A model generated the notes under the pieces. That model was not told the origin of the DNA, did no database searches, and was given only the letters and a program-made list of their open reading frames with translations. A program made the translations under genes and the position numbers. This document shows, one piece after another, positions 42,735 to 61,442 of a DNA stretch of 64,000 bases. Position 1 is the stretch's first letter; every line of letters begins with the position of its first letter. Source of the stretch: Rhodobiaceae bacterium (GTDB lineage Bacteria; Pseudomonadota; Alphaproteobacteria; RS24); the NCBI GenBank assembly GCA_018673175.1, contig JABHDF010000026.1, positions 1 through 64,000 on the forward strand, in the 5' to 3' direction.

Positions 42735-42892
42735 GCCAAAGTAAAGTGGCGTGAGCGCTGAATTCGGTCTATAGGTAAAGACGGAACTGCCCGACGCGAT
42801 ACATGCATATAACGCTCGGGACCTTACGATCCTTCAGGGAGCTGTCCCTGAGGCGGGCCGTGGCCTGCTTCATACGGTGCCCACCTACTTAT
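42735..42892 (+). ncRNA. ssrS: 6S RNA (approximate ends)
   Basis: zapA-[ssrS]-fau synteny; terminal pairing AAGTAaaGTGG with CCACcTACTT; hairpin CCTTCAGGGAGCTGTCCCTGAGG; about 160 nt gap with no ORF. Confidence 0.72.
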
Positions 42893-42962
42893 GTAGGTCT
42901 CCGGGGATTACGCATAAACCGGTTGTGGCGGTTCCGCTTTGAAAGTGCCGATGACAATATCG

Positions 42963-58778: not shown

Positions 58779-59629
58779 GCGAAGCTAAATTTGTGCCGGG
58801 TAAAGTTATGGTCGTGGCGGGCTCCGACAGCGGCGGCGGGGCCGGCATTCAGGCCGACATAAAAGCCATTATGGCGCAAGGCGCTTATGCCACCACTGCC
58901 ATTTCGGCGCTGACGGCGCAAAACACCCAAGGCGTGCAAGATATATTCGACGTCCCGCCGGCTTTCGTGGTCAGCCAAATGACTTCTATTTTGTCAGACA
59001 TTGACGCCGATATTTTAAAAACCGGCATGTTGGCCACCCGCGCCACCATCGAGGCGGTGGCCGAGGCGCGCGATCGGTTGAAGCCCAAGTTACCCATGAT
59101 TGTCGACCCCGTGATGGTGGCCACCTCGGGCGACCCGCTGCTGGCCGAAGACGCCATTGCGGCGCTGGCCTCGTTGCTGGTGCGCCATGCGCTTATCGTG
59201 ACGCCTAATTTGCCCGAAGCCAGCCTGCTGGTAGGGCGCGACACCGACACGCTAGACGACATGAAACGCGCCGCCGATAAATTAATGGAGGGCGGCGCGC
59301 ATGCGGCTCTCATCAAGGGCGGCCATGCCAGTGCCTCGGGTAATTCGGTAAGTGATTTATTGGCTTTGCAGTCGGGCATGCATGTGTTCGAGCAAGCCCG
59401 CCTCGAGACGACCAACACGCATGGCACAGGCTGCACTTTGGCCAGCGCGCTGTCGGGTCAATTGGCCAATTCGATGGGGCGAGAGGATGGGGAGTTGGAT
59501 AGCAAAGGCCACCCATCAGACGCCACGCTGCTGCACGCCACCGAGACGGCGGTTGCTTACGTCCACCGAGCCATAAAAGCCGCGCCAGACATCGGCCAAG
59601 GCCATGGGCCGGTTTGGCATGGGGTTTAG
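58775..59629 (+). CDS. thiD: Bifunctional hydroxymethylpyrimidine kinase/phosphomethylpyrimidine kinase (GTG start)
   Basis: [54 protein letters not shown]. Confidence 0.95.
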
Positions 59630-59665: not shown

Positions 59666-59767
59666 CTAGTCTTGAACGATAAATAAAAACAACGCGTTAA
59701 GCGGTTTGTCGCCTTTGGTTTGTCTGTTGCATTTGTATAGCCCTCGCTACTTTCTGTGGAGGATATA

Positions 59768-59995
59768 ATGGCACTTATAAAAGAATTCGAACCCGAATGG
59801 CTGGATGACACAACAGTTCAAGAGCCCGTGGTAAAAGCGACTTACTCAATGTTTAAGGCAGGGCGTGGCAAGCGATATCTTTACATTAGAACTTTCGGCT
59901 CGAAGGACAGGGTTAAAAAAGGTCAACCTAGCCAGTTTTTTCAGCTTGATACCGAGGCTATTGAGCAGTTGAAGAAAATTCTGGAGGATTTTTGA
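59768..59995 (+). CDS. Small conserved-type protein of unknown function (about 75 aa), translationally adjacent to the Ntn-hydrolase ORF
   Basis: GGAGG 5 nt before ATG; RYLYIRTFGSKDRVKKGQPSQFFQLDTEAIEQLKKILEDF resembles a recurrent short family (RYLQIDTYGSxDR...SQxxQFD); stop 1 nt before the next ATG. Confidence 0.7.
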   Translation: MALIKEFEPEWLDDTTVQEPVVKATYSMFKAGRGKRYLYIRTFGSKDRVKKGQPSQFFQLDTEAIEQLKKILEDF

Positions 59996-59996
59996 T

Positions 59997-60683
59997 ATGA
60001 CAGCCGAAGTAGCAGTTATAAATCTGGGCGGAATTGCATTGGCGGCTGACAGCGCTGTTACCTTCGGCGCAGGAGGAGAAAGTAAAAAATCCTTTACTCA
60101 TTCAAATAAAATATTTGAATTATCTAAGACACAACCGATTGGTATAATGATTTACGGCAATGCGTATTTCGGTCGATTGCCTCTCGAAGCACTGATTAAA
60201 GAGTTTAGAAAAGCTTCAAGCAGACGGGATTATCCAACGGTTGAAGCTTGTGCGGATCACTTCATAGAATTTTTATCTGACGATAAATTTTTGGAGACGG
60301 TTGATGATACGCTGAATACGCTTTCGGCATTTACTCAAGTTCTCACAGATCTAATTGAAGGTTGCATAGCTGTTGCAAAAGGCTCTGACAAGAGAGCTTT
60401 GACGGAAACTGTAGGCAACATGATTTTAGCTCAGAGAGCTGAGGTGCTCTCAAGTAGTGGGCTTTTCGAGCCACTTGAAGTAGGCGAATATTTCCCCTCG
60501 GCGGTGGTGGATGATTATGTAGAATTTGCTAACAAATATTGCAGTGACGTATGGCGAGCCAAAGAAACCGAAGGTCAAGAGTTGTTGCAGATGGTTCTCA
60601 CTGAAAAAAGTACCGTAAAAGCTATTTTACAGTCATGCGTTTTCATTCAAAGCCGGCCCATAGTGCTCGAATTGCTTTACTGA
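59997..60683 (+). CDS. Proteasome-beta/HslV-like Ntn-hydrolase family protein, apparently frameshifted at the 3' end
   Basis: MTAEVAVINLGGIALAADSAVTFG...SNKIFEL...PIGIMIYGNAYF; after Met removal Thr1, Asp17 and a Lys at 37 (K33-like) line up with the proteasome active site; continues in +1 frame to 60804. Confidence 0.7.
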   Translation: MTAEVAVINLGGIALAADSAVTFGAGGESKKSFTHSNKIFELSKTQPIGIMIYGNAYFGRLPLEALIKEFRKASSRRDYPTVEACADHFIEFLSDDKFLETVDDTLNTLSAFTQVLTDLIEGCIAVAKGSDKRALTETVGNMILAQRAEVLSSSGLFEPLEVGEYFPSAVVDDYVEFANKYCSDVWRAKETEGQELLQMVLTEKSTVKAILQSCVFIQSRPIVLELLY

Positions 60684-60827: not shown

Positions 60828-60958
60828 ATTTCTCGGCAGAATTTAAATCAGGAAGTAAATTGAACTTTAGAAGATGACCGTTTTTATTCGTCTCTAACCT
60901 TTTGCCACCCCTTCCTTTCCCCCCACACATCTGCTAGCCTCTTCTTATCAACGCGCGA

Positions 60959-61049
60959 ATGGTGCGTTGGTGGGGCTAGTAACCCCTTCCGAAAGCCGCA
61001 ATTTGTATTGCGTATGTGGCTTAACGCTCTTGGCGTTAGGCCTTTTTTT
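60959..61049 (+). ncRNA. Candidate trp-leader-like attenuator / orphan attenuator sRNA
   Basis: ATG GTG CGT TGG TGG GGC TAG (MVRWWG*); antiterminator AAGCCGCAAT-TTGT-ATTGC(GTATGT)GGCTT 60993-61022; overlapping terminator GGCTTAACGC-TCTTG-GCGTTAGGCC-TTTTTTT 61018-61049. Confidence 0.5.
61018..61049 (+). terminator. Rho-independent terminator
   Basis: 10-bp stem GGCTTAACGC/GCGTTAGGCC (one T-G pair), 5-nt loop, T7. Confidence 0.88.
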
Positions 61050-61154
61050 ATAAATTGCTGCAAAAATCCGTTCACTCCGCTTCGTCGGGGTGGCGGCGAA
61101 ATAAGGTTTCGACTGAATACGTCGCGGCCGGTCTTTTGGACGGTTTACTACGCC

Positions 61155-61185
61155 CCGACACCTGCGAAAGCAGGTGTCGGTTTTT
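61155..61185 (+). terminator. Terminator-like or REP-like palindrome
   Basis: CCGACACCTGC-GAAA-GCAGGTGTCGG (11-bp perfect stem, GNRA loop) then TTTTT. Confidence 0.7.
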
Positions 61186-61313
61186 GCGTTTGAGTTGGGG
61201 GTAAGGGTTGAATAAGGCGAACTCCAGGCTGGAGCCCGCCGAATAGGCCCTAAGTGAGCCAGACGCAAACTGCCGTTAAGAAGCATGCGCGCCAAGCTCA
61301 TTGCATAAATGCC

Positions 61314-61442
61314 CCCAGCACCCGCAAAGCCCAAGTTGCCCCCGTCTCCAAGGTTTTACTGCGCAAAACCTCTCCGCTTGGGGTAGGCGGGCTGGGCTTG
61401 CCCTTCGGGCAAACGAGCCCTTTTACCCAGCACCCGCGAAGC
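61314..61442 (+). repeat. Direct repeat pair CCCAGCACCCGC[A/G]AAGC
   Basis: Copies at 61314-61330 and 61426-61442, 16/17 identical. Confidence 0.85.

Follow-up and report, generated by a model that had tools for sequence, protein, structure and literature searches.

The window analysed here is a stretch of 64,000 nucleotides from a Rhodobiaceae bacterium (contig JABHDF010000026.1 of GenBank assembly GCA_018673175.1). Judged by comparison of its copies, a unit of about 215 nt lies at approximately 60947-61162, and the segment singled out by an earlier sequence-only reading (60959-61049) is its 5′ half. The next gene after the unit is serC, which has its own leader directly 5′ of it (RF00517, 61507-61558, 68 bits); the serC leader is a separate element and was rejected as the identity of the unit. 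On the other side, two accessory open reading frames without a clear Pfam family occupy 59756-60683, between the RNA unit and a gene whose end is at 59629; genome G010 has another gene at the equivalent site, by eye one with TPR-like repeats, which gives the site the look of an insertion hot spot. The unit is followed by a second three-way-junction-like element (61194-61330) with an AATA/GAATA internal loop and a closing stem of the GTTGGGGG/CCCCCAGC type, also found in G010 and in genome G004; a search for pairing between this element and the 5′ module of the unit yielded helices at chance level only. Elsewhere in the window, 6S RNA (RF00013) is located at 42781-42938 (60.2 bits).

Layout of the unit

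The features of the unit are collected in Table 1. At the position of the extended -10 element the aligned copies show TGC-TAGCCT, TGC-CATAGT or TGC-TATCGT; there is no good -35 upstream of it, as had been remarked before. Compared with shuffled sequences, folding gave z = -3.1 for 60959-61049 and z = -4.4 for 60940-61049. The earlier claim of a hairpin competing with a terminator was borne out, since both are present and alternative folds are predicted: a transcript ending at 61022 or 61030 is predicted to form the AAGCC:GGCTT hairpin and the complete transcript the terminator, which in the full transcript is thermodynamically preferred over the antiterminator hairpin. The 'a' segment extends into AAGCC, the antiterminator's 5′ arm. 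One strand of a terminator-like hairpin with a T5 run also belongs to the stem that closes the three-way junction, an arrangement likewise seen in G010 and G004, and transcripts that pass the first terminator may therefore end there.

Table 1. Features of the unit in window coordinates
Feature	Position	Strand	Basis and remarks
Extended -10 promoter-like element, TGC-TAGCCT	60932-60940	+	Kept in aligned copies; probable start near 60947
P1 hairpin, ATCAACGCGC/GTGCGTTGGT	60947-60971	+	Predicted fold; includes the ATG of the leader peptide read earlier
P2 hairpin, GGGG-CTAGTAA-CCCC	60972-60986	+	Stem with compensatory changes; loop (60976-60982) is the 'b' target
'a' target segment, TCCGAAAG	60988-60995	+	8-bp complementarity (one G-U) to CTTTTGGA, 61133-61140
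Antiterminator-like hairpin, AAGCC (60993-60997) able to pair with GGCTT (61018-61022), inner CGCAAT/ATTGCG	60993-61022	+	Alignment of 27 copies; fold of 60947-61022 and 60947-61030
Intrinsic terminator, stem GGCTTAACGC/GCGTTAGGCC (61018-61042) then T7 (61043-61049)	61018-61049	+	Stem (helix 3) with compensatory changes
sRNA-Xcc1-like three-way-junction RNA, AATA/GAATA internal loop; proposed antisense RNA	61084-61162	+	RF02221 match; covarying helices 4-7
Putative antisense recognition arm: a′ CTTTTGGA (61133-61140), b′ TTTACTA (61144-61150)	61133-61150	+	Own-versus-swapped test
Terminator-like hairpin, CCGACACCTGC/GCAGGTGTCGG and T5	61155-61185	+	5′ strand shared with closing stem of the three-way junction

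Copies in a single family

A DNA search of 61 genomes, including metagenome-assembled genomes (MAGs), detected related copies in the source genome and in sister genomes. A covariance model (R1), which covers the 5′ module only, found five copies in the source genome and 44 copies in 18 of the 61 genomes, all within one family, and none in 33 sampled genomes of other alphaproteobacterial families. The relatives carrying copies include marine Rhodobiaceae MAGs and strain IMCC14465. Phage and plasmid collections gave no DNA match to the window element.

Across 27 aligned copies 98.3% of the cells were paired and 16 pairs had changed on both sides, a result as high in none of 500 shuffles; the relatedness of the copies inflates such shuffle tests, and the swapped-pair and held-out tests described below are less exposed to it. 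The P1 hairpin is present among the copies with variable sequence. The antiterminator-like hairpin is the most conserved stretch of the unit, near-invariant in the 27 copies; its inner stem is paired in 99% of cells yet scarcely varies, so covariation is no test of that stem.

In 12 of the 27 copies a gene for an HTH_3-like protein of about 111 amino acids starts roughly 30-50 nt after the unit (one such gene is apparently broken). This gene is absent after the unit in the window and at the equivalent place in G010 and G004; at the site in G010 two units stand in tandem. Units and partial 3′ modules also occur close to genes that look by eye like toxin-antitoxin genes, and at contig ends (L024 1321-1690; contig ends G000:C31, G000:C61 and G004:C13), the latter position suggesting that the units are repeats that break assemblies.

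Self-complementarity in the window family and at sRNA-Xcc1 loci

The Rfam model RF02221 (sRNA-Xcc1) matched 61084-61167 with 28.9 bits (E 0.0046), under its gathering score of 53, and the best score among copies in the same family was 47.7 bits, again below this cut-off; the 3′ half is thus a divergent relative of sRNA-Xcc1 and not a member. Common to both is the three-way junction with its AATA/GAATA internal loop, the presence of which in the window is supported by the alignment, covarying helices 4-7 and the predicted fold. The sRNA-Xcc1 family occurs across Proteobacteria and has been discussed mainly as a virulence-linked small RNA; in X. campestris, Northern blots showed an RNA of about 88-100 nt, for which mapping gave a length of 88 nt (PMC2996969). 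No covariance match to C4 (RF01695) or isrK (RF01394) reached the gathering score in the window, where isrK scored 14.2 bits at the 61158-61185 hairpin and c4-a1b1 scored 10.2 bits, both at chance level.

Above-cut-off sRNA-Xcc1 matches in plasmids, phages and genomes often lie directly 5′ of phage regulatory genes. The downstream genes include Bro-N, ORF6N, KilA-N, P22_AR_N, AntA, Rha and SymE (the last in agreement with PMC12444791), and at several loci they are of other or uncharacterised types. Upstream of sRNA-Xcc1 there is a short unit in which a hairpin is combined with an AGCGG-like motif and a T run. The pattern AGC[CGT]G, with at least four T no more than 40 nt behind it, was found upstream in 30/39 and 23/39 loci (control 1/39 and 1/38), and a stricter hairpin-plus-T scan placed a terminator upstream in 24/40 loci versus 23/298 control windows. 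sRNA-Xcc1 has an arm whose sequence complements both the upstream hairpin's loop with the segment after it and the ribosome-binding region of the gene that follows.

RNAduplex applied to whole modules without intramolecular structure was uninformative. Instead, complementarity was scored as the best two ungapped helices inside a locus relative to swapped loci. The sRNA-Xcc1 loci at which the pairing pattern had first been noticed by eye formed the discovery set and gave z = 12.4 upstream and z = 9.4 for the 60 nt downstream that contain the ribosome-binding site. With the scoring unchanged, 37 held-out loci gave z = 9.1 upstream and 6.5 downstream (controls 0.3 and 1.0). The controls for these tests, the RNA's other half and a region 100 nt further upstream, ranged overall from -0.8 to 1.0.

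The same scoring was applied to the 27 copies of the window family, where the match of arm III to the P2-spacer scored z = 8.6 (control -0.1). The pairing segments vary among copies and correspond inside each copy, as in the divergent self-matching examples CCGAGTAAAAG/CTTTTACTCGG, CCGAACGATGG/CCATCGTTCGG and CCGCATCAAGAG/CTCTTGATGCGG from other copies; a few of the 27 lack a self-match (ranks 16-26). For the window copy its own match ranks first of 27, with both recognition segments complementary to the leader site upstream: TCCGAAAG/CTTTTGGA and TAGTAA/TTACTA (the 60976-60982 loop with 61145-61150), short helices of 8 and 6 bp. The gene-bearing copies of the family showed no significant complementarity to the ribosome-binding region (p = 0.87), except in one small cluster, and the window unit has no downstream antirepressor ribosome-binding region with which to pair. 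Read from its sequence, the unit is thus a promoter-like element and a two-hairpin short RNA with an antiterminator-like hairpin and a terminator, followed by a junction RNA with a matching third arm.

This arrangement has known counterparts. At sRNA-Xcc1 loci, as in the window family, an antisense arm matches a terminated short RNA upstream and many copies lie directly 5′ of a small gene; however, the downstream genes of the window family are HTH_3-like and not antirepressors, and its 5′ module, longer and of a distinct type, is confined to this family. The order short terminated RNA, antisense RNA, ribosome-binding region and antirepressor-type gene is that of isrK and C4 in Gifsy/P1-type phages and is also found at sRNA-Xcc1 loci; the window copy differs in having no downstream gene. 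IsrK either ends at its terminator or is extended by read-through into an antirepressor mRNA (PMC4825925), and C4 represses Ant synthesis (PMC8546580, PMC12197685). Both orders occur in tandem in an E. coli prophage (L185 162-1308), where isrK-C4-Rha is followed directly by short RNA-sRNA-Xcc1-ORF6N. Here, C4 matches isrK through CCTTGATTG/CAATCGAGG and GTGAGAA/TTCTCAC and the Rha ribosome-binding region through CCTTGATTG/CAATCAAGG, the same pairing logic as that of sRNA-Xcc1 with its own upstream RNA. None of the sRNA-Xcc1 RNAs scanned gave a C4 or C4-2 covariance match, indicating that by covariance model they are a different RNA family. The CI RNA of phage P4, with seqA and seqC, is likewise a leader-derived antisense RNA that pairs upstream and downstream of itself, this pairing with flanking sites causing termination (PMC4825925); here the likeness is one of description only. 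The Group 1 sRNAs of Acinetobacter baumannii, which are C4-like and processed from longer transcripts (PMC5320573), resemble the window family in their many chromosomal copies with variable a′ regions, although they belong to the C4 family, are not sRNA-Xcc1-like and come from another class of bacteria.

Alternative explanations and a proposed mechanism

The sequence-only reading had interpreted the 5′ half as a ribosome-mediated trp attenuator, or as a relic or free-standing trpL-like element with the leader peptide MVRWWG. The window copy does contain an ATG followed by tandem TGG codons (ATGGTGCGTTGGTGGGGCTAG at 60959-60979, read as ATG GTG CGT TGG TGG GGC TAG), a competing hairpin and a terminator, and shares with trpL/rnTrpL the logic of antiterminator versus terminator. 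Among the copies, however, the codons are not conserved: TGGTGG occurs in 3/27, and only 2/27 have WW in a frame that begins with ATG (MVRWWG and MERWWG). The Trp-codon region is stem sequence, with the TGG codons falling within two hairpin stems; in the predicted folds TGGT pairs with 60947-60950 to close one hairpin and GGGG (60972-60975) pairs with CCCC (60983-60986), and the '1:2' pairing postulated between TGGGGCT and AGCCGCA is absent. The conserved extended -10 implies a probable start near 60947, which makes it unlikely that the ATG at 60959 is leaderless. Nor does the element end at 61049 as proposed, since conservation continues for about 110 nt beyond the terminator, to about 61162. 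No copy examined was linked to a trp gene, there is none in the neighbourhood of the window copy, and the best trpE match of the source genome (G000:C31) begins 10 nt past the upstream gene, which leaves no room for a leader. We therefore give a trp attenuator hardly any credence. The suggestion of a transcription attenuator, perhaps as a free-standing RNA, stands as far as the mutually exclusive antiterminator and terminator are concerned and falls with respect to tryptophan: judged by the alignment, the Trp codons of the window copy are accidental. The window element, unlike trpL/rnTrpL, has no conserved Trp codons and no trp gene, and the role of sensor most likely falls to the antisense RNA encoded immediately downstream and not to a translating ribosome.

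The unit could also be a dispersed structured DNA repeat or the end of a mobile element (attC-like or MITE-like), its RNA features being incidental. Such an origin would fit copies that are numerous, lie beside accessory genes and at contig ends and stand in tandem in G010, as well as the report of sRNA-Xcc1 in integron cassettes (PMC12444791). We consider it improbable: the conserved extended -10, the intrinsic terminator, the position about 30-50 nt 5′ of genes and the restriction of the antisense match to one arm are all features of an RNA, and the original sRNA-Xcc1 was seen as RNA on Northern blots (PMC2996969). An integron attC site was considered as the identity of the window element and rejected. 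Similarly improbable is a trans-acting sRNA family whose main targets are other host mRNAs, as proposed for sRNA-Xcc1, so described in the title of Chen et al. 2011 (cited in PMC12189769); an orphan copy with no gene in cis would suit this explanation, but the variable arm fits its own upstream leader, which makes self targets the conserved ones. Still more doubtful is a two-stage ligand-sensing, riboswitch-like leader in which the highly conserved core and the three-way junction would serve as aptamers. While the near-invariant core GCCGCAATTTG..TTGCGTATGTGGCTT and the alternative stems at both terminators point in this direction, variable arms that match copy by copy are what antisense pairing, and not ligand binding, would lead one to expect.

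Our preferred reading, to which we assign a probability of about 0.8, sees the window unit as an orphan copy of an antisense-RNA attenuator that is self-specific and of the type represented by phage C4/isrK. The complementarity within the unit is observed, whereas its transcription and the control of termination are what we infer from the layout. According to this model, transcription would start near 60947 and cutting of a read-through transcript would free the three-way-junction RNA, whose a′ and b′ segments would pair with a and b in newly made transcripts. Because the 'a' segment overlaps the antiterminator 5′ arm, this pairing would block AAGCC and leave GGCTT to the terminator, so that transcription would stop at 61049. 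As the terminator wins thermodynamically, the putative effect of the antisense RNA on termination would be kinetic. Where a unit is complete, at other loci, the junction RNA would also cover the downstream ribosome-binding site (of an antirepressor, Rha or SymE gene at sRNA-Xcc1 loci). With no gene inside the unit and serC under its own leader, the window copy probably yields nothing but short RNAs that control their own production.

An unlikely extension is that a phage-type antisense attenuator has been turned into a multi-copy host family with copy-specific pairing that controls small HTH proteins, the gene-less copies acting as trans immunity RNAs against incoming elements with the same leader. 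For sRNA-Xcc1, the proposal supplies a testable mechanism, that of a leader-encoded antisense RNA directed against the preceding terminated RNA and the following ribosome-binding site, which would often concern phage antirepressors and SymE; within the open-access literature searched, of which the main 2011 paper is not part, nothing ties sRNA-Xcc1 to antirepressors or antisense attenuation. The layout of C4/isrK and P4 control would thereby extend to a further RNA family, with a divergent chromosomal version in small-genome marine Alphaproteobacteria.
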